Below, one piece after another: positions 2,871 to 37,935 of a stretch of DNA of 62,345 nt; the stretch's first letter is position 1; each line of letters starts with the position of its first letter. A program made the position numbers and the translations under genes. A model generated the notes under the pieces. That model made no database searches and had not been told where the DNA came from. It worked only from the letters and a program-made list of their open reading frames with translations. Origin of the DNA: Prevotella sp. GTDB taxonomy: Bacteria > Bacteroidota > Bacteroidia > Bacteroidales > Bacteroidaceae. Where the stretch lies: NCBI GenBank assembly GCA_017627765.1, contig JAGAGD010000011.1, positions 1-62,345 on the forward strand, given 5' to 3'.

Positions 2871-3311
2871 CTAATAGTTTTTGAACTTAGAAATAGCGTA
2901 CACAATACAATTTGGTTGTTCAAATACTAATCTATTCTCAAATCGCAAAGTATTTATACCATATTCATTGAATAGTTCTTCTTCACGACTTTTGTCATGC
3001 TCTTGTACTGAACTGCAATTGTGATAGTCACCATCAAGTTCAATAGCAAGGCGTAAAGCGGGACAGTAAAAATCTAAAATATATTTATCAATACTGTACT
3101 GACGACGGAATTGTAGTCCTGCAACTTGTTTGCCTTTTAATATTCTCCATAGTGCAGCCTCTGCAGGTGTACTATTGTTTCTGAGTTGGCGACGTAAGAA
3201 TTTCATGCTTTTTAAGTTTATCACATGTTTAGTGTTTCTCAACGCCCCCTTACCCCCTCTAGTCTTAGAGGGGGAATCGCTGCTATGCTTCAATTCCGTC
3301 TCTTCCGTCAT
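2871..3311 (-). CDS. DUF559 endonuclease-like protein
   Basis: A 146-residue protein of the DUF559 family (Vsr/PD-(D/E)XK-like fold). Core features are visible: RRQLRNNSTPAEAALWRILKG, then GLQFRRQYSIDKYILDFYCPALRLAIELDGDYH, where the Asp, Glu-x-Asp and His residues correspond to the nuclease-like active site. A C-terminal GINTLRFEN completes the family pattern. Family members normally begin near MKFLRRQLRN. Here that Met is at 3206, and the preceding 35 residues include DSPSKTRGG, which is encoded by the CCCCCTCTA/TTAGAGGGGG palindrome found between genes. The upstream start may be real or an artefact of repeat insertion. Its role in the polysaccharide locus is unknown. Confidence 0.75.
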   Translation of the reverse strand: MTEETELKHSSDSPSKTRGGKGALRNTKHVINLKSMKFLRRQLRNNSTPAEAALWRILKGKQVAGLQFRRQYSIDKYILDFYCPALRLAIELDGDYHNCSSVQEHDKSREEELFNEYGINTLRFENRLVFEQPNCIVYAISKFKNY

Positions 3312-3649
3312 GTTGTTTTCCGTTATTCTGCAGGTTTATGGTATTTATTAAAAGTTTAAGTTTTACTCCATCCAAAGCTCTAGTATTAATTCCCCCTCTA
3401 AGTTAGAGGGGGTGCCCCGACGGGGCGGGGGCGTATGCAAAACTCAAAATAAGTACATCTAATAGGATACTATTTATTTTTCAAAACTAAATTCTCTATT
3501 CATCCTCAATACAAGATAATATGCTAAGTAATCAAGTTAGGATCTCATAACTCACCACTCATAACCCATAACTCATAACTCACAACTAGTTCCCGTTCCC
3601 GTTCCCGTTCCCGTTCTCGTTCTCGTTCCCGTTCTCGTTAATATATTTA
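3312..3649. repeat. Repeat mosaic: palindrome, GAGTTATGAG token, hexamer tract
   Basis: No gene seen. The interval holds a perfect palindrome (CCCCCTCTAA/TTAGAGGGGG, about 3390-3412), a GC-rich token GGCGGGGGCGTATGC, a run of CTCATAACTCACAACT tokens (3545-3590) and a GTTCCC/GTTCTC hexamer tract from about 3590 to 3640. The same tokens, in other orders, fill most gaps between genes from here to 22 kb. Confidence 0.8.
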
Positions 3650-4024
3650 TTAATATTTTCTTATCGAAGCAATAAGACCTGTTAGTTGCTTTTGAATTTC
3701 TGTTAGTGAAAGCATTAACAAGTTATATTGTTCCATTTCTATATATTTTAGATTTCTCGATATAAGCAATTGTGTTTCTACTTCATTTGAAGAACCAAGT
3801 GCCACATCAAGGAAATGTGCAAAGTCTGTGTCATTAGGGCGTCCAGCACCCTCAGCAATATTTGAAGAAATGCTCACAACTGCTCTTTGCAACTGGTCGC
3901 ATAGCCCTTTCTTCTCAAACCAAGGTAATTTAGTTGTAACTTCATATACTTTAGTAGCAAACTCGACAGAATCTTGCCACACTTTATATTCTCTAAAATT
4001 CCTTGCCTTTAATTTTTCATTCAT
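3650..4024 (-). CDS. Four-helix-bundle protein, S23/IVP family (copy 1)
   Basis: A 124-residue protein of the family first described as encoded in 23S rRNA intervening sequences (PF05635/TIGR02436). Family marks are FREYKVWQDSVEFATKVY at the N-terminus, LPWFEKKGLCDQLQRA in helix 2 and ISSNIAEGAGR in helix 3, with a C-terminal helix LLMLSLTEIQKQLTGLI. No rRNA gene is present here, so this is a free-standing copy. It shares about 80 percent or more of its residues with copies at 6461-6703 and 8006-8368. All three sit between glycosyltransferase genes and are bordered upstream by hexamer tracts. Function is unknown. Confidence 0.85.
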   Translation of the reverse strand: MNEKLKARNFREYKVWQDSVEFATKVYEVTTKLPWFEKKGLCDQLQRAVVSISSNIAEGAGRPNDTDFAHFLDVALGSSNEVETQLLISRNLKYIEMEQYNLLMLSLTEIQKQLTGLIASIRKY

Positions 4025-4044
4025 AGTTAGTAATTATTCTTAAT

Positions 4045-4150
4045 TCCGTTCTCGTTCCCGTTCTCGTTAAAGTTCACATGGCGTATGCCCTAGTTCCCGT
4101 TAAGGTTAACGTTAAAGTTAAAGTTAGATTAGTTCCCGTTCCCGTTATCG
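4045..4150. repeat. Hexamer tract with GGCGTATGCC token
   Basis: GTTCTC, GTTCCC, GTTAAA and GTTAAG hexamers run through the gap, broken by the token CATGGCGTATGCCCTAG (inverted GGC...GCC). The tract reaches the stop codon of the glycosyltransferase at 4145, so the last codons of that gene are next to, or part of, the repeat. Confidence 0.8.
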
Positions 4151-5209
4151 TTGAGTATACACCCCTTCATACCCTTCTACCATCTTGGTGATGTCGAACT
4201 GTTGGGCGCGGGCGTAGCAGGAAGAAGCTACCTGGTTGTAATAGTCTTGGTCGGTAGATAGTCGTTCTATTATCTTAGCAAGGGAGTCTGAGTCTTCATG
4301 TGGGAAGAGTATGCCGTAGCCTTCAGTTATCTCGTGCAGTCCGTCTACATCGCTTGCGATGAAAGGTTTGTCTACAGACATTCCTTCGATGTTCGATAAG
4401 GATAGGCCTTCATAATGCGATGACATAACTACAACATCGGCTGTGTGAAGCAGTCTTGCAACATCAGTACGCAATCCCAAGAACTTCACGTTGTCTTCAA
4501 TGTTTAAGTTTTTAGCCAAGTTCTTAACGTCGTTAAGTCTCTCACCAGTACCTACAAGCCAAAGTTCAAATTTCTCCTTTGGCAGTTTTGCTATAGCTTT
4601 AACTAATGTGTCTTGATCTTTTTGTTTGCGGAAACCTGCAACCATTATAGCAACAAACTTATCTGTCTTAAGTTCTTCTATAGGTTTCGCGTTATGAAAA
4701 CTTGCTATATCAACACCATTAAATATAGTTACTATAGGCAGTTTGTCTCGTTTTAGGTAATTACGCAGATTTTCCTCTGCCTGATTGGATATGCATATAA
4801 TGCGATTATACCTGTTATACATCCATCTGTCAATATTGGCATACCATTTCCAATATCGGCGGCGATTAGATGTATTATGTTCCGTTGTAATAAGTTTCTT
4901 TCGTGTAAATAAGTTCGCTATTGCAGCAAACAACTGAGGAGAAGAATTATGAGTATGCACAATATCATATTTCTTCATTATTCCAATCAGTTTTATTATA
5001 TATAGCGGATTGTAGCAAGAAGTTCCCAATTCATAAATCTTACATTCTGGACATTCGTGCTTCAGTCTCTCCATCAGCTTAGTCTTCTCATTGTTAAAAA
5101 CAACAAGTCCAACCTCATGCCCTAAATCCCTGAAGCGAGGCATCAGGTTCACAACCAATGTCTCAGCCCCACCAGTCTGTAACGAAGTAATTATATGTAG
5201 TATTTTCAT
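4145..5209 (-). CDS. Glycosyltransferase family 4
   Basis: A 354-residue GT-B glycosyltransferase. The N-terminus MKILHIITSLQTGGAETLV is the classic GT4 start with the GGAE acceptor-side motif. The C-terminal domain shows VAIMVAGFRKQKDQDTLVKA, then SSHYEGLSLSNIEGMSVDKP (the E-x7-E region, here with Ser/Asn variations) and VDGLHEI. Length is standard. It belongs to the minus-strand polysaccharide locus and would add a sugar on the inner face of the membrane before flipping by Wzx. Repeat tracts flank it on both sides, so whether it is co-transcribed with its neighbours is unclear. Confidence 0.9.
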   Translation of the reverse strand: MKILHIITSLQTGGAETLVVNLMPRFRDLGHEVGLVVFNNEKTKLMERLKHECPECKIYELGTSCYNPLYIIKLIGIMKKYDIVHTHNSSPQLFAAIANLFTRKKLITTEHNTSNRRRYWKWYANIDRWMYNRYNRIICISNQAEENLRNYLKRDKLPIVTIFNGVDIASFHNAKPIEELKTDKFVAIMVAGFRKQKDQDTLVKAIAKLPKEKFELWLVGTGERLNDVKNLAKNLNIEDNVKFLGLRTDVARLLHTADVVVMSSHYEGLSLSNIEGMSVDKPFIASDVDGLHEITEGYGILFPHEDSDSLAKIIERLSTDQDYYNQVASSCYARAQQFDITKMVEGYEGVYTQR

Positions 5210-5219
5210 TATTCAATAA

Positions 5220-5357
5220 TAAATCTTAACTTTAACCTTAACTTTAACGTTCCCGTTCCCATTTTTCAATTCCCCCTCTAAGTTAGAGGGGGAAAGGGGG
5301 CGTATGCTCTAGTTCCCGTTTTCGTTCCCGTTAAAGTTAGATTAGTTCCCGTTCCCG
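5220..5357. repeat. Hexamer tract with CCCCCTCTAA palindrome
   Basis: AACTTT/AACCTT hexamers, a perfect CCCCCTCTAA...TTAGAGGGGG palindrome at about 5273-5293, a GGCGTATGC token and a GTTCCC/GTTTTC tract occupy the gap and extend into the last codons of the neighbouring gene, whose C-terminus reads INGNGN from the repeat. Confidence 0.8.
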
Positions 5358-6433
5358 TTAATATCCCTCCTATGCATAGCATATCCAAGAGGCATGGCAA
5401 TAATCCAGTACCAGTTTATAGTAGGAATTTTATTCCAAATAGTGTCTTTAATAGTTTTGTTATCGTTTCTATTATAGCAGAAACGGAATCTCCAGTAGTT
5501 TATAGCAGCTTTCATCTTTTGTATGAAAGGCACGTTACTATATCTCGTCATCTCTGCGTATGTCATCATGGCGGCTATAGGGCTATTCATTCTTGCTTTG
5601 ACGATACCAGAAGAAATACCATCATTTTGATATTCTGCCAAATATATTACCTTATTAAAATATCTCAATTTATATTTTGTAGCAATCCTGTTCCATAGAA
5701 GCATCTCAGGGCAAAATCTTTCATTCTCTATTTCTGGAAATGGAAATTCTTTTAATACACAAGTCTTAAATACTTCTTTCATATCTCCAGTAACACCATA
5801 TTTCATGCGGATGCATAATGAGCTCTCATCCATTATATCCTGAGGAAGTCCACTACCTATAACCTTACCATCAAAAGTACCATCAAGTCCACATACCCCA
5901 GCAAAAGAATTATCACATTTAATGCCTTCATACATTTTTGCAACATCTTCAAGAGCATTAACTGGCAGCATATCATCACTATCAGCAATAAAGAATAATT
6001 CCCCTTTAGCTTCCTTTACTCCCACATTTATAGCAGTATGTTTCCCTCCATTAGCTTTATATATATAGCGTATAGGAAAAGACTTCTCTGGAATCTCACA
6101 CGGATTGCACAGATTATGCGGATTTATCTGCTTTGATTTATCGTTAGAGTCATCCCCCTTGTTAAAGTTAAGGTTAACGTTAAAGTTAGAATTCTCGTTC
6201 TCGTTCCCAATCTTTAATTCCCCCTCTAAGTTAGAGGGGGCAAGGGGGAGTCTGTCATTGTTCCCGTTAACGTTAAGGTTAAAGTTTTCTATAACTTCCC
6301 TCGTCTCATCTGTACTCCCATCATCCACTATAAGCCATTCAAAATCCTTAAATGTCTGTTTACATAAACTCTCGTAGAGGCGCGGCAGCAGATGTGCGCG
6401 ATTATATGTCGGTGTAAATACTGTTATTAGCAT
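5342..6433 (-). CDS. Glycosyltransferase family 2 with an in-frame repeat insert
   Basis: A 363-residue GT-A enzyme. It opens with LITVFTPTYNRAHLLPRLYESL, has DGST at about 38-41 and the DxD-type ADSDDM in the middle, as in GT2 enzymes that elongate surface glycans. Residues about 50-117 interrupt the family pattern: normal sequence stops at TREVIE and resumes at FPIRYIYKANGGKHTA, which should be close neighbours. The insert includes NENENSNFNVNLNFN and NLCNPCEIPE, encoded by hexamer, palindrome and CACGGATT tokens. The frame is open throughout, so the enzyme may be made with a roughly 67-residue surface loop. The C-terminus also reads into a hexamer tract. Activity with the loop is untested. 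Confidence 0.85.
   Translation of the reverse strand: MLITVFTPTYNRAHLLPRLYESLCKQTFKDFEWLIVDDGSTDETREVIENFNLNVNGNNDRLPLAPSNLEGELKIGNENENSNFNVNLNFNKGDDSNDKSKQINPHNLCNPCEIPEKSFPIRYIYKANGGKHTAINVGVKEAKGELFFIADSDDMLPVNALEDVAKMYEGIKCDNSFAGVCGLDGTFDGKVIGSGLPQDIMDESSLCIRMKYGVTGDMKEVFKTCVLKEFPFPEIENERFCPEMLLWNRIATKYKLRYFNKVIYLAEYQNDGISSGIVKARMNSPIAAMMTYAEMTRYSNVPFIQKMKAAINYWRFRFCYNRNDNKTIKDTIWNKIPTINWYWIIAMPLGYAMHRRDINGNGN
6083..6286 (-). repeat. Composite repeat inserted in frame in a GT2 gene
   Basis: About 204 bp (68 codons) made of hexamers (AACTTT, AACGTT, AACCTT, AACGAG), the palindrome CCCCCTCTAA/TTAGAGGGGG and a CACGGATTGCACAGATTA token. In the coding direction it has no stop and encodes Asn-rich sequence. 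About 150 bp of it is nearly identical to a stretch inside the unrelated gene at 8500-10023, including GDDS-DKSK-INP-NLCNPCEIPE. Both copies are in the same coding frame and orientation. Confidence 0.85.
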
Positions 6434-6460
6434 AATATTATATTAACTTTAACCTTAACT

Positions 6461-6703
6461 TTAACTATTTACTTCATTGGCAGAACCTAATGCCATATAA
6501 AGGAAATGTGCAAAGTCTGAATCTGTAGAATGTCCAGCACCTTCCGCAATATTTGAAGAAATACTTACAACGGCTCTCTGAAGTTGGTCGCAAAGTCCTT
6601 TCTTCTCAAACCAAGGTAATTTTGATGTAACTTCATATACTTTAGTTGCATATTCAACAGCATCCTGCCAAACTTTATATTCTCTAAAATTCCTTGTCTT
6701 CAT
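6461..6703 (-). pseudogene. Four-helix-bundle S23-family gene (copy 2), 3'-deleted
   Basis: The first 78 residues are nearly identical to those of the copy at 8006-8368, as is the upstream CTGTTTTTATAAAATTCCCG. After GSANEV the frame reads two residues and stops, and the DNA continues as AACTTT/AACCTT hexamers. Comparison with copy 3 suggests that about 110 bp were lost between an AACTATTT next to the hexamers and an ACTTCATT inside the gene. The fourth helix and most of the third-fourth connection are missing, so a stable four-helix bundle is unlikely. Confidence 0.75.
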
Positions 6704-6830
6704 CTACTCTGTTTTTATAAAATTCCCGTTAACGTTAAAGTTTTCATGGCGTATGCCCTAGTTAATGCTCCCGTTAACGTTTTCGTTCCCGTTAAGGTTA
6801 ACGTTAAAGTTAAAAACCGTAGGTTTTGTC
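6704..6830. repeat. Hexamer tract with GGCGTATGCC token
   Basis: GTTAAC, GTTAAA, GTTCCC and GTTAAG hexamers with one CATGGCGTATGCCCTAG token. The arrangement upstream of this S23 copy matches that upstream of the copy at 8006-8368. Confidence 0.8.
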
Positions 6831-7976
6831 TTATTTATAGAACTTATCTATATCGTAGTTATGGTCATACTCATATTTCTCTTCAATATAGTCGCCTTCT
6901 CTTACTCCATCTGTGAAAAAGGTTTTGTATGGACTAAGGAGTACCCCCCATGCAAAAAGAATACGATAATATAGGAATAAAGAAACGAATAACATTGTTG
7001 CACCAAGATATGTAATCTTTCTTGTATGGGTAGCTAAATATGTAATAGTAGCAATAATTCCAATCATATAATACCATCCAAGACGTCCTCCATTTTCGGA
7101 ACGTACGAATATTAAGAGAATAGCACAGAAGATAAGACCCATATTTAACATGACTAAATTAAGTGGTTTCTGTGGTATTTTATGGTAATTATATAGAATA
7201 TAGCCAAGAAAGAAAACTGCTTCAACTAAATATGCTATACGAAAACCACTTTCATCAGAGGTATAAATTTCAGCTCTATCCTCTGCTCCTACGATTGAAC
7301 CGTATGCCTCGAATAATCCACCTGTAATATTCGATAATCCTAAAAGCAGGCAAATAACCATTACAATAAGTACACGAGTTTTATCAAATTTCTTTATAGG
7401 AACAAAATAAAGTGGCACAAAAACAATTGCAGAATTATGGAAAAGCATTGCGATTAAAAGTACACTAAGAAATCGCCAACGTTTTCTGTCAACAATATAT
7501 TGTATAGACAACCAAGCAATTGATGCTGCCATTACTTGTCTGAAGTAAGTAAAAGTAAAGAAAAACCACAAACCCATAAACAATAATACTGCATACGGGT
7601 AGTTTTCCATATATCTCTTGAAAGATGCAAACAAGAGAGCATATATTATTATAGTTGTAATAAAAATGAATATATACCGATTTCGAGTAAATAGTCCAAT
7701 CAACACATTAAATATGTTATACCCAGGTTCTGTTCTGTATAGATTAAAAATCTCAGCTTGAAATACATTTTCTTTATTAACAATCCTATTTGCAACATCA
7801 TCAAAAAGTTCCGCATAGATGTAACGGTCATATCCTCCAAGCATATCAGAAATACCTACGAATATACCTAAGAGCGCCATGCAAAAGACTAAGATACGAA
7901 CATCATTAGCCTTCTTCTCGTATGTAGAGAAGTAAATGGCTACTATCAAAAAGAAAATTGCTAAATATAAAAACAT
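6831..7976 (-). CDS. EpsG/Wzy-type polysaccharide polymerase
   Basis: A 381-residue multi-pass membrane protein with about ten hydrophobic segments, beginning FLYLAIFFLIVAIYFSTYEKK. A loop after the first segments has GGYDRYIYAELF, and later segments include the pattern FTYFRQVMAASIAWLSIQYI followed by LLIAMLFHNSAIVFVPLYF. These are the marks of the EpsG family, which polymerises repeat units on the outer face of the inner membrane. It is the only polymerase candidate in the locus, and it complements the Wzx flippase at 16633-18078. S23-family genes lie on both sides. Specificity is not inferable. Confidence 0.85.
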   Translation of the reverse strand: MFLYLAIFFLIVAIYFSTYEKKANDVRILVFCMALLGIFVGISDMLGGYDRYIYAELFDDVANRIVNKENVFQAEIFNLYRTEPGYNIFNVLIGLFTRNRYIFIFITTIIIYALLFASFKRYMENYPYAVLLFMGLWFFFTFTYFRQVMAASIAWLSIQYIVDRKRWRFLSVLLIAMLFHNSAIVFVPLYFVPIKKFDKTRVLIVMVICLLLGLSNITGGLFEAYGSIVGAEDRAEIYTSDESGFRIAYLVEAVFFLGYILYNYHKIPQKPLNLVMLNMGLIFCAILLIFVRSENGGRLGWYYMIGIIATITYLATHTRKITYLGATMLFVSLFLYYRILFAWGVLLSPYKTFFTDGVREGDYIEEKYEYDHNYDIDKFYK

Positions 7977-8005
7977 GATTATTGACTTTAACTTTAACCT
8001 TAACC

Positions 8006-8368
8006 TTAACTATTTTTTATTGCTGCTATTAATTCTACTATTTGTTTTTGGATTTCTGTAAGATTTAATATCAGCATATTATAATGTTCTAAATCAATGT
8101 AGTTTAGATTCTTTGAAATTAGTAATTGTGTTTCTACTTCATTAGCAGAACCTAATGCCATATAAAGGAAATGTGCAAAGTCTGAATCTGTTGAACGTCC
8201 AGCACCTTCCGCAATAATTGAAGAAATGCTCACAACGGCTCTCTGAAGTTGGTCGCAAAGTCCTTTCTTCTCAAACCAAGGTAATTTTGATGTAACTTCA
8301 TATACTTTAGTTGCATATTCAACAGCATCCTGCCAAACTTTATATTCTCTAAAATTCCTTGTCTTCAT
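8006..8368 (-). CDS. Four-helix-bundle protein, S23/IVP family (copy 3)
   Basis: A complete 120-residue member of PF05635/TIGR02436: KTRNFREYKVWQDAVEYATK, LPWFEKKGLCDQLQRAVVSI, IAEGAGRSTDSDFAHFLYMA and a C-terminal helix LILNLTEIQKQIVELI. The sequence ISSIIAEGAG differs from the usual ISSNIAEGAG at one position. It is nearly identical over the shared part to the truncated copy at 6461-6703, so the two arose by a recent duplication of this segment and its upstream repeat. Function is unknown; no rRNA is near. Confidence 0.85.
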   Translation of the reverse strand: MKTRNFREYKVWQDAVEYATKVYEVTSKLPWFEKKGLCDQLQRAVVSISSIIAEGAGRSTDSDFAHFLYMALGSANEVETQLLISKNLNYIDLEHYNMLILNLTEIQKQIVELIAAIKNS

Positions 8369-8384
8369 ATACTCTGTTTTTATA

Positions 8385-8499
8385 AAATTCCCGTTAGCGT
8401 TAAAGTTATCATGGCGTAGCCCTAGTTAAAGTTAAAGTTAGCGTTAACGTTAAAGTTAATCATGGCGTATGCCCTAGTTAAAGTTAACGTTAAAGTTAA
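8385..8499. repeat. Hexamer tract with two GGCGTA(TG)CCC tokens
   Basis: GTTAGC, GTTAAA and GTTAAC hexamers alternate with two copies of the ATGGCGTA...CCCTAG token (about 8410 and 8462), the first lacking two bases (GGCGTAGCC). The tract abuts the stop codon of the gene at 8500. Confidence 0.8.
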
Positions 8500-10023
8500 T
8501 CATCCTCCAAAGAGTTCTGATGAAATCTTTCTCCTGTTATGATATTTGAGGACAGCTTGTCTTCCTGCTTCTGCCATTCTCTCATATTTATATAGATTGT
8601 TAGGAATGTCATTGAGAATATCTATAACTTCAGTAGGGTAGTGGTATTCTATGCAAGACTCGCCATGCTTAACAGCAATATTCTCTAATGCGTATGTTGT
8701 ACCAATAACCAACAAGCCATTAGCCAAAGCATCCAGCACCTTTCCTTTAGTTCCCGTTCCAATAGCAATCGGGGTAATCTGAATGTCGTGTTTACATATC
8801 TCCTCTATATAGTCAGGCGCAAACTTAATATGGTTAACCTCAAATCCAGCTTTCCTCAAATTCTCAACATGCTTCTCCCATCCTTTACCAAGAAATGTTA
8901 TTGTGTAGTTCTTTTTTAACTGTGAACTATGAACAATGGGCGCTTCACTTGTTGATTGTGTTATAGTGTTCTCAGGAATCTCACACGGATTGCACAGATT
9001 ACGCGGATTTATATGCTTTGATTTATCGTAAGAGTCATCCCCCTCGTTAAAGTTAAGGTTAACGTTAAAGTTAGAATTCTCGTTCTCGTTTCTCAATTCC
9101 CCCTTTAAGTTAGAGGGGGCAAGGGGGAATCTGTTCTCGTTAACGTTAACGTTATCGTTAGCACTGATTTGCTCTATAAGTAAGTCCGCTTCCTGCTTCA
9201 TATAAAGATTATACTGTCCCGCAATCAGCAACTTAATTTTCGGACTATGGAACTTTTTGCTTATAGATTTATTATCTGTGTGAGTTCCGTACTCGTTATC
9301 GTTTTCATGGCGTCCGCATTTGTTAAAGTTAACGTTAACGTTAAAGTTTTCTTGGCGTCTGCCCTTGTTAAAGTTATCCCTAACCTCATAATGCGGATGT
9401 CTAAGGAACTTAGCATTAACTTTCGGATTAAGATTCTTCAAGAACTTAATATCCTCTTCACCAACTGCATAGTAAATAAAGTTAGTATCTGTGCAGAAAT
9501 TCCTTTCCATGCGAGCATATTTCCTATACATTAAAGCACATTTCCAATAGTCAATAGGATTTTTCATTACAAATCGTTGACCAAGCATACGGTAATAATA
9601 TAATGACTCTGTATCTGGACCTAACTGTATTCGCTTAGTATTTGGAAACTGCTTAATCACTCGTGAAAGTTCCTCACCATACACCCAGATTAAATCTGGA
9701 TTTTGAGATTTAATCTCTTCAACATACTTTTGTGGCAGCTTTATATAGTTTAAGAATGGATATTTCAGGAATATACGTAAAAATAGCAGATGAAGTTTAA
9801 ACATCCATTGATACCACTTTGGAAGTGGTATTGTCTTTATTGAAACATTCAACTCCTTTTCAACCTCTTTTATCTTCTCATCAGAAAGAGCATTCGCATT
9901 AAATGTATATATAGAAATATCTATATTTCCATTCCTTTCTGCCATTAAATGGTAAGGAAGGGCTGATGTTCCTCTTATGTTTTCTGAGGCTGGAGTCGTT
10001 AATGTAACTAATATTAAATTCAT
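8500..10023 (-). CDS. Glycosyltransferase (GT4-like) with two in-frame repeat inserts
   Basis: A 507-residue GT-B-like protein. The native part includes ILVTLTTPASENIRGTSALPYHL, a mid region with IQLGPDTESLYYYRML, and a C-terminal domain with TFLGKGWEKHV, ITPIAIGTGTKGKVLDALANGLLVIGT and AGRQAVLKYHNR, which fits a sugar-nucleotide binding domain with a GTGTKGK loop. Two stretches interrupt it: residues about 216-258 (ENFNVNVNFNKCGRHENDNE) and about 288-369 (NENENSNFNVNLNFN, NLCNPCEIPE). Both are encoded by repeat tokens and keep the frame open. Without them the protein would be about 380 residues, normal for the family. I infer that it was a functional transferase that tolerated the insertions or is drifting. 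Confidence 0.8.
   Translation of the reverse strand: MNLILVTLTTPASENIRGTSALPYHLMAERNGNIDISIYTFNANALSDEKIKEVEKELNVSIKTIPLPKWYQWMFKLHLLFLRIFLKYPFLNYIKLPQKYVEEIKSQNPDLIWVYGEELSRVIKQFPNTKRIQLGPDTESLYYYRMLGQRFVMKNPIDYWKCALMYRKYARMERNFCTDTNFIYYAVGEEDIKFLKNLNPKVNAKFLRHPHYEVRDNFNKGRRQENFNVNVNFNKCGRHENDNEYGTHTDNKSISKKFHSPKIKLLIAGQYNLYMKQEADLLIEQISANDNVNVNENRFPLAPSNLKGELRNENENSNFNVNLNFNEGDDSYDKSKHINPRNLCNPCEIPENTITQSTSEAPIVHSSQLKKNYTITFLGKGWEKHVENLRKAGFEVNHIKFAPDYIEEICKHDIQITPIAIGTGTKGKVLDALANGLLVIGTTYALENIAVKHGESCIEYHYPTEVIDILNDIPNNLYKYERMAEAGRQAVLKYHNRRKISSELFGG
8917..9162 (-). repeat. Composite repeat inserted in frame in a glycosyltransferase gene (second insert)
   Basis: Tokens in order on the plus strand: a CACGGATTGCACAGATTA token, GTTAAA/GTTAAG/GTTAAC hexamers, GTTCTC hexamers, a near-perfect CCCCCTTTAA/TTAGAGGGGG palindrome and GTTAAC hexamers. 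Most of it (about 8980-9130) is nearly identical to the insert at 6083-6286. The outer ends (ITQSTSEAPIVHSSQL side) do not match the other copy. Confidence 0.8.
9250..9378 (-). repeat. Short hexamer insert in frame in the same gene (first insert)
   Basis: GTTAAA and GTTAAC hexamers, two GGCGTC-GC tokens and a GTTATC tract, encoding NFNVNVNFN and flanking charged residues. It lacks the palindrome and the CACGGATT token of the longer insert. It splits the protein between HPHYEVRD and PKIKLLIAGQY. Confidence 0.7.
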
Positions 10024-10203
10024 TTATACTGGTATCAGAAATAAAATTATTAAAGAAATAATTTATACAATCTTTCTATATTTAAGAATTATATAAGAAT
10101 TGTAGTTTTCCATGAAAGAGATTTTCTTTAATTGGGTATAATTTAAATTCTTTCATTTGTTCTAAAAATAAAAGCTTATCTTTATAAAAGATATTTTTAT
10201 CAT

Positions 10204-37789: not shown

Positions 37790-37935
37790 ATTAATTTCAC
37801 ACAGATGCCACAGATCTCTCTGATTTTTCCAACGTTAACAACGGGAACGGGAACAACCTTAACGTTAACTTTAACGATAACGGGAACGTTAACCTTAACC
37901 TTAACCTTAACGGGAACTTTAACTTTAACTGGTTA
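37790..37935. repeat. CACAGATGCC token and hexamer tract
   Basis: A CACACAGATGCCACAGATC token (about 37798-37816) followed by AACGGG, AACGTT, AACCTT and AACTTT hexamers to 37932, then GAGTTA and GAACTATGAACT tokens up to the end of lptD. Confidence 0.8.

Follow-up and report, generated by a model that had tools for sequence, protein, structure and literature searches.

Short modular repeats dispersed through a Prevotella genome probably spread mainly in the spacers between genes, and their copies in genes probably survive in linkers and loops, read in the one frame that places Asn at every second residue (the x-Asn frame). It appears that repeat DNA gives rise to new predicted protein segments, nearly always an Asn-rich soft loop. 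The window, i.e., the whole stretch of 62,345 nucleotides that was analysed, contains two glycosyltransferase genes, GT2 and a GT4-like gene, with such inserts (Table 1). A sequence-only reading had described a composite repeat running through both in the same frame and orientation and without stops, and had called the two hosts unrelated. The sequence confirms the former, and the proteins match nowhere but in the insert at E 1e-5 (a single match, 67 residues, 78%). The observation is confirmed and its extent is larger than first described: the set of inserts in two genes stands, but the GT4-like gene has a further one at site 1, and the inserts exist, but the bounds first given, 6083-6286 and 8917-9162, are corrected in Table 1.

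Table 1. Host genes, inserts and repeat features in the window.
Feature	Position	Strand	Remarks
GT2 glycosyltransferase gene, host of insert 1	5342..6433	-	363 aa; open frame; PF00535 1.2e-24, two stretches
GT4-like glycosyltransferase gene, host of inserts 2 and 3	8500..10023	-	507 aa; open frame; PF13692 1.3e-6
GT2 insert (NFNLNVNGN...CEIPE)	6086..6286	-	201 nt, 67 aa; missing in 20/20 aligned orthologues
GT4 site 2 insert	8971..9159	-	189 nt, 63 aa; missing in 13/14 orthologues
GT4 site 1 insert	9259..9375	-	39 aa; hexamers and two GGCATACGCCATGA-like modules
GTTNNN hexamer array, left end of GT2 insert as read from the gene	6260..6289	+	
Palindrome CCCCCTCTAAGTTAGAGGGGG within GT2	6220..6240	.	
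GTTNNN hexamer array	6161..6190	+	units identical to 9046-9075
CACGGATT... segment	6099..6124	+	common only to GT4 copy, 8984-9009
Palindrome within GT4, one base changed	9099..9119	.	
Intergenic composite copy (array, palindrome 5272-5292, array)	5225..5341	.	
Hexamer array, intergenic	6442..6465	-	
CATGGCG module with hexamer array, intergenic	6740..6814	+	
Hexamer array in short spacer, intergenic	7987..8010	-	
Hexamer arrays with CATGGCG modules, reaching GT4 stop codon	8405..8500	+	
13-unit hexamer array, intergenic, the window's longest	37852..37929	-	

Both inserts are insertions relative to orthologues. The orthologues come from protein searches of 150 genomes of the same genus; the 20 best GT2 matches were aligned, and all 20 lack the 67-residue segment, as do 15 of 15 aligned GT2 relatives from named records (15 of 65 loci aligned), which range over Prevotellaceae, Dysgonomonas, Empedobacter, Romboutsia and Leptotrichia. 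At GT4 site 2, 13 of 14 orthologues have no insert, the exception being G009 (L127); at site 1, 11 of the 14 are empty and L127 and L128 carry a shorter or different insert, L139 being incomplete there and so not judged. Residues shared across orthologues, the outcome that speaks against insertion, are thus not what the alignments gave. In both enzymes the dispersed repeat replaces or extends a short loop, in keeping with the proposal that it stands in place of one. The loop that takes the GT2 insert holds a short, different segment in two GT2 orthologues, L107 (G009) and L233 (RUG11493). Repeat-like segments, built of AATTC heptamers and small hairpins, lie in frame in L107, in L113/L240 (GT2 of G030), in L233 and in L128/L240 (GT4 site 1).

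An AlphaFold model of GT2 (mean pLDDT 80, pTM 0.77; 16 sequences) retains the core, with 213 of 363 residues at pLDDT of at least 90, and gives pLDDT below 50 to residues 56-113, between the helix at 44-53 and the strand at 121-125. The DSDD motif of the GT-A fold (D151-D154) is invariant in all 16 aligned sequences. The model is what would be expected of a GT-A enzyme with an inserted loop that keeps its core fold and DSDD motif; in it the insert is predicted to be disordered and the enzyme core intact.

Aligned with each other, the inserts of GT2 and GT4 site 2 agree at 173 of 189 positions. Two gaps of 6 nt, one of them internal and the other at an end, separate them; both inserts begin in equal codon phase, and their lengths differ by whole hexamers. 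Over the final 101 positions of the alignment there are 96 identities, the genes being 2.9 kb apart; four of the five differences there alter a residue, so that there is no sign of selection on the insert itself. This near-identity, and the 97% duplication of a 284-nt stretch between the genes, could point to gene conversion within one polysaccharide-type cluster, the insert pair being a local accident; same-frame arrays in 21 other predicted genes contradict this as a full account, which is very unlikely. Local copying between GT2 and GT4 is likely as one step, and would probably be the latest one; in G009 (L127) each GT4 site carries short Asn-x runs, which favours GT4 as the older host. The 284-nt duplication near the two genes (window 6470-6753 and 8135-8418) overlaps two small reading frames and extends into hexamer arrays, and spacers of about 30 nt in the gene cluster (window 6433-6461 and 7976-8006) are mostly hexamer array.

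Two components of the insert are dispersed. Three GTTAAN units in a row, with at most one mismatch, occur at 241 + 247 = 488 overlapping places in the genome, and the reversed pattern at 1. The palindrome, with at most three mismatches, occupies four places in the window (eight matches on both strands), against 0 in 100 shuffles, and a 204-nt query finds 74 matches in its own genome (BLAST). The CACGGATT segment was rejected as a dispersed repeat: in a genome-wide BLAST it is covered solely by the GT2 and GT4 copies, and 295 kb of the genome hold weaker likenesses at most, three of them at the start of the window. The composite make-up originally claimed therefore stands for the hexamers and the palindrome but not for CACGGATT. 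The window's very start (32-93) carries CACAGATT repeats.

The hexamer joins a fixed GTT to a variable triplet. Among 516 intergenic units of our sample from the genome itself, AAA, CCC, AAG, AAC, ATC and CTC account for 495, and none is a stop in the x-Asn or the Val-x frame (for x-Asn, 0 stops against 7.4 expected if positions are assumed independent). Triplet sets differ by genome (AAG, AAC, ATC, TTC and ATG in G158), and the commonest triplets agree between in-gene and intergenic units, both within the genome itself and within its relatives. Listed arrays span 4 to 25 units, in approximately random order: shared strings of four units number 226 pairs (shuffled mean 153, maximum 199), and shared strings exceed all 300 shuffles at lengths 4 and 6, but do not do so at length 5 (52 vs. 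a maximum of 54) or 8.

The palindromic core is mostly intergenic: 25 of the 27 copies in the stretches from the same genome lie outside called genes and two lie in genes. By eye, ATACGCCCCCTT is a flank common to 18 of the 27 and a second hairpin flank occurs in seven; when the 27 are lined up by eye, the core passes into hexamers with no sharp end, the empty sites of orthologues being too diverged to help, and no target duplication, fixed end or intermediate was recognised among the copies compared. The palindrome is open in the x-Asn frame in 16 of the 27 copies (the two in genes and 14 in spacers), and 22 copies are open in Leu-x on the opposite strand; since Leu-x is open in more copies, openness alone cannot single out x-Asn. 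Stop removal was considered for a further module, AAC-TAG-GGCATACGCCATGA, and rejected, since the TAG in 7 of 11 spacer copies vs. none of two gene copies makes too few, in a count from which a doubtful row among the spacer copies (L080) and two gene rows due to chance were omitted.

Across the genus, which is Prevotella in the broad sense judging by named relatives, the modules are patchy, as searches of the genome itself and of related genomes with the insert sequences demonstrate. With at most one mismatch allowed, the palindrome is present in 7 genomes out of 398 of the genus, its own included, with 26 places in its own, 63 in G110, 26 in G253 and 10 in G147. Of 150 genomes of the genus, 25 hold runs of four exact GTTANN units, again including its own (238 places; G158, 182); the reversed control reaches at most three places per genome. 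G110 and G147 have no GTTANN array and G158 has no palindrome: arrays and palindromic core are separable modules, each found without the other in sister genomes. The whole 204-nt query matches in 4 of 60 genomes, its own included, and in 0 of 24 genomes from the order's other families. Sampling of the class and phylum gave array places in 12 of 197 other genomes, at most seven in each; the reversed control reaches 11 in some. Several matches of the 204-nt query lie about 500 bases or nearer to contig ends (C54, C109, C101, C110, C75, C33, C10 and C103), so the assembly was probably broken by the repeats and the true copy number is probably higher. In G122, with the contigs taken in their given orientation, the array places are strongly one-sided (33 reverse vs. 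4 forward, overlapping places).

A genuine mobile element, akin to a MITE or to a Rickettsia palindromic element (RPE), moved by a transposase and with hexamer arrays as its degenerate ends, would fit the flanks shared among palindrome copies, the high and patchy copy number (up to 63 copies in those 7 of 398 genomes) and the folding of the GT2 composite, which is better than that of 200 of 200 shuffles (z -2.72). Such an element is unlikely: arrays and core are each found on their own, the ends vary with no target duplication recognised, and no match was found among the plasmid or phage sequences searched. Rfam gave no match in window 3000-10100. We prefer spread by joining of modules; recombination or template switching at repeated GTT/AAC, rather than a transposase, may drive it.

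A second type of anchored array, heptamers of AATTC plus a variable dinucleotide (mostly AN), occurs at 53 places in G170, 43 in G156 and 23 in G026 (L302, L303). The AATTC heptamers of the GT2 genes of G009 and G030 were rejected as genome repeats, being rare there (1 and 4 places), and in G167 the reversed control outnumbers the heptamer pattern, 80 to 11. The hairpin CCTCTCC-AAA-GGAGAGG of the G030 GT4 gene was likewise rejected as a dispersed sequence, with one place each in G030 (the gene itself), G019 and G026 among 21 genomes.

The reading frame of the arrays was mapped in 12 genomes of the genus (the genome itself and G158, G120, G071, G133, G164, G091, G009, G008, G122, G162 and G139) with a purpose-written gene caller in which array codons carry no score. 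Because repeat hits guided the choice of stretches, the share of arrays inside genes does not stand for the whole genome. In 295 kb of the genome itself, 107 arrays of at least four units divide into 89 intergenic, 12 at gene ends and 6 internal; 60 stretches of the relatives (293 kb) hold 80, of which 43 are intergenic, 14 at gene ends and 23 internal. All 29 internal arrays are read in the x-Asn frame (AAC strand, phase 0), in 23 genes of 8 of the 12 genomes, or 21 genes after two paralogue pairs are merged. Each of the 29 has at least four open frames, and with equal chance among four frames the result has a probability of about 2e-13 over 21 gene families. Three internal arrays at locus hits in other genomes, examined by longest open frame, are exceptions, giving Val-x (L164, ZnuA; L182) or Tyr-Gly (L173), and these are read, after the fact, as ordinary coding repeats. 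One of the 29, L086, has triplets outside the vocabulary and may be a chance array. Gene-end arrays stand outside the frame count; one, L212, places Val-x at the N-terminus. Spacer arrays between co-directional genes have no strand preference, the coding strand reading AAC in 26 of 60 and GTT in 34 of 60. A codon test, in which x-Asn runs favour AAC by 162 to 4 in the fetched relatives and by 43 to 8 in our own sample, was set aside as biased because the loci had been picked by GTT.

The array hosts include, by Pfam, TamB, a GH28 enzyme, a PPDK_N protein, QueA, GH115 (with the array within the C-terminal domain) and an endonuclease; two DUF3987 hosts are paralogues, and 2 of the 10 hosts scanned first have no Pfam family. 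G120 carries an independent x-Asn insert in its QueA, 18 residues that 12 of 12 aligned orthologues lack; two of these orthologues have other low-complexity inserts at another loop. Inserts at one QueA loop in L313 (G033) and L316 (G018) read STFNVQRSTFNV-like and PLTSHPSPLTT. Outside the counted set, x-Asn runs occur in Rho (L063), a PSP1 protein (L187) and the C-terminal regions of L166, L167 and L169; the Rho factor, at L063 67-2079 of G005, has its run ahead of the RNA-binding domain. A G133 gene pair with hexamers and STFNSQLST was rejected as independent evidence, as the genes are paralogues.

The exclusive use of x-Asn in the 29 internal arrays could also be that of ordinary low-complexity Asn linkers, grown by slippage in each gene and favoured as flexible, their likeness to spacer arrays being secondary. 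Some arrays do lie between domains, e.g., those between HATPase and receiver in the hybrid histidine kinase L220, and the short G009 runs lie at the same GT4 sites. Against such an origin, which we consider quite unlikely, the glycosyltransferase inserts hold the largely intergenic palindromic core as well as non-hexamer sequence common to GT2 and GT4, and triplet usage agrees between genes and spacers. Moreover, orthologue loci that had not been selected for arrays have few x-Asn runs of at least four, 2 in 67,863 residues, both in L127.

Capture of spacer repeats by genes, the reading we favour, would work as follows. Hexamer runs with a GTT anchor and a small, species-specific triplet set would often be joined in register to short modules, the palindromic core being one, and gene-borne copies would persist where the chain leaves the folded core. 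The x-Asn frame would be retained in genes because any other open frame yields runs of Val-x, Leu-x or x-Thr: these would be expected to harm folding, whereas an x-Asn segment would stay soluble and disordered. Survival of the in-gene copies would then be a matter of selection. If growth and exchange proceed mostly by triplets or whole hexamers, an array within a gene could gain or lose modules and keep its frame.

Triplet register is also seen between genes. Neighbouring intergenic arrays on the same strand are spaced by a multiple of three in 32 of 39 pairs of the own-genome sample, where pairs share modules and eight of the gaps, each of 6, may represent one altered unit apiece; by distinct gap length the count is 9 of 15, and the one pair in the relatives is not a multiple of three. 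With no known protein there, this register suggests joining at repeated GTT/AAC. A bolder extension, possible but doubtful, is a frame-locked repeat language of GTT anchor and species-specific triplets, in which modules would be linked in triplet register, between genes too, by a templated or recombining process; spacer DNA would be pre-adapted as stop-free x-Asn sequence, and Prevotella genomes would repeatedly make new loops from non-coding DNA, even in a highly conserved enzyme such as QueA.

The arrays offer a natural series across one genus, in which spacer repeats enter genes in one frame and empty-site orthologues are available. Both the passage from repeat DNA to protein sequence and the origin of short arrays that differ between species thereby become testable. 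They also carry a warning, since repeats sit at contig ends, at least in this fragmented assembly.

Searches of a literature of incomplete coverage, with many journals outside it, turned up no description of such arrays. RPEs, with which the insert had been compared, are dispersed both in spacers and, with the frame kept, in conserved protein genes, and one RPE-bearing protein was shown to be translated and active; they measure 105-146 bp, have terminal inverted repeats and form long stem-loops (available text of PMC2229807). The likeness lies in in-frame insertion of a dispersed repeat into loops of conserved genes, missing in orthologues, as found here for GT2, GT4 and QueA. RPE membership is not supported: a unit of 100-150 bp with terminal inverted repeats and one long hairpin is not what we find, because arrays span such a range of lengths and those of G158 have no palindrome. 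The common unit here, a GTTNNN array that is not a palindrome, varies in length and ends and draws on a species-specific triplet set, sets the insert apart from RPEs as described; the palindromic core belongs to part of the copies, the sampled copies are mostly intergenic and the phylum is another. Correia/NEMIS, ERIC and RU elements are also small repeats with open frames fused in frame to genes (same source, available text). Those elements have defined termini, and several have target-site duplications, neither of which was recognised here. Coding microsatellites resemble the arrays in that a hexamer step preserves the frame, but here six triplets are mixed in approximately random order, unlike a simple tandem repeat of copies of one unit, and arrays are also abundant between genes. 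The STRR repeats of heterocyst-forming cyanobacteria have a heptamer unit and are dispersed in spacers. They differ in unit, in phylum and in lying within an RNA gene, that of RNase P RNA (Vioque 1997, as cited in the available text of PMC7593598 and PMC4748335); as far as those texts go, they are like the arrays described here in forming short tandem arrays within a functional gene.
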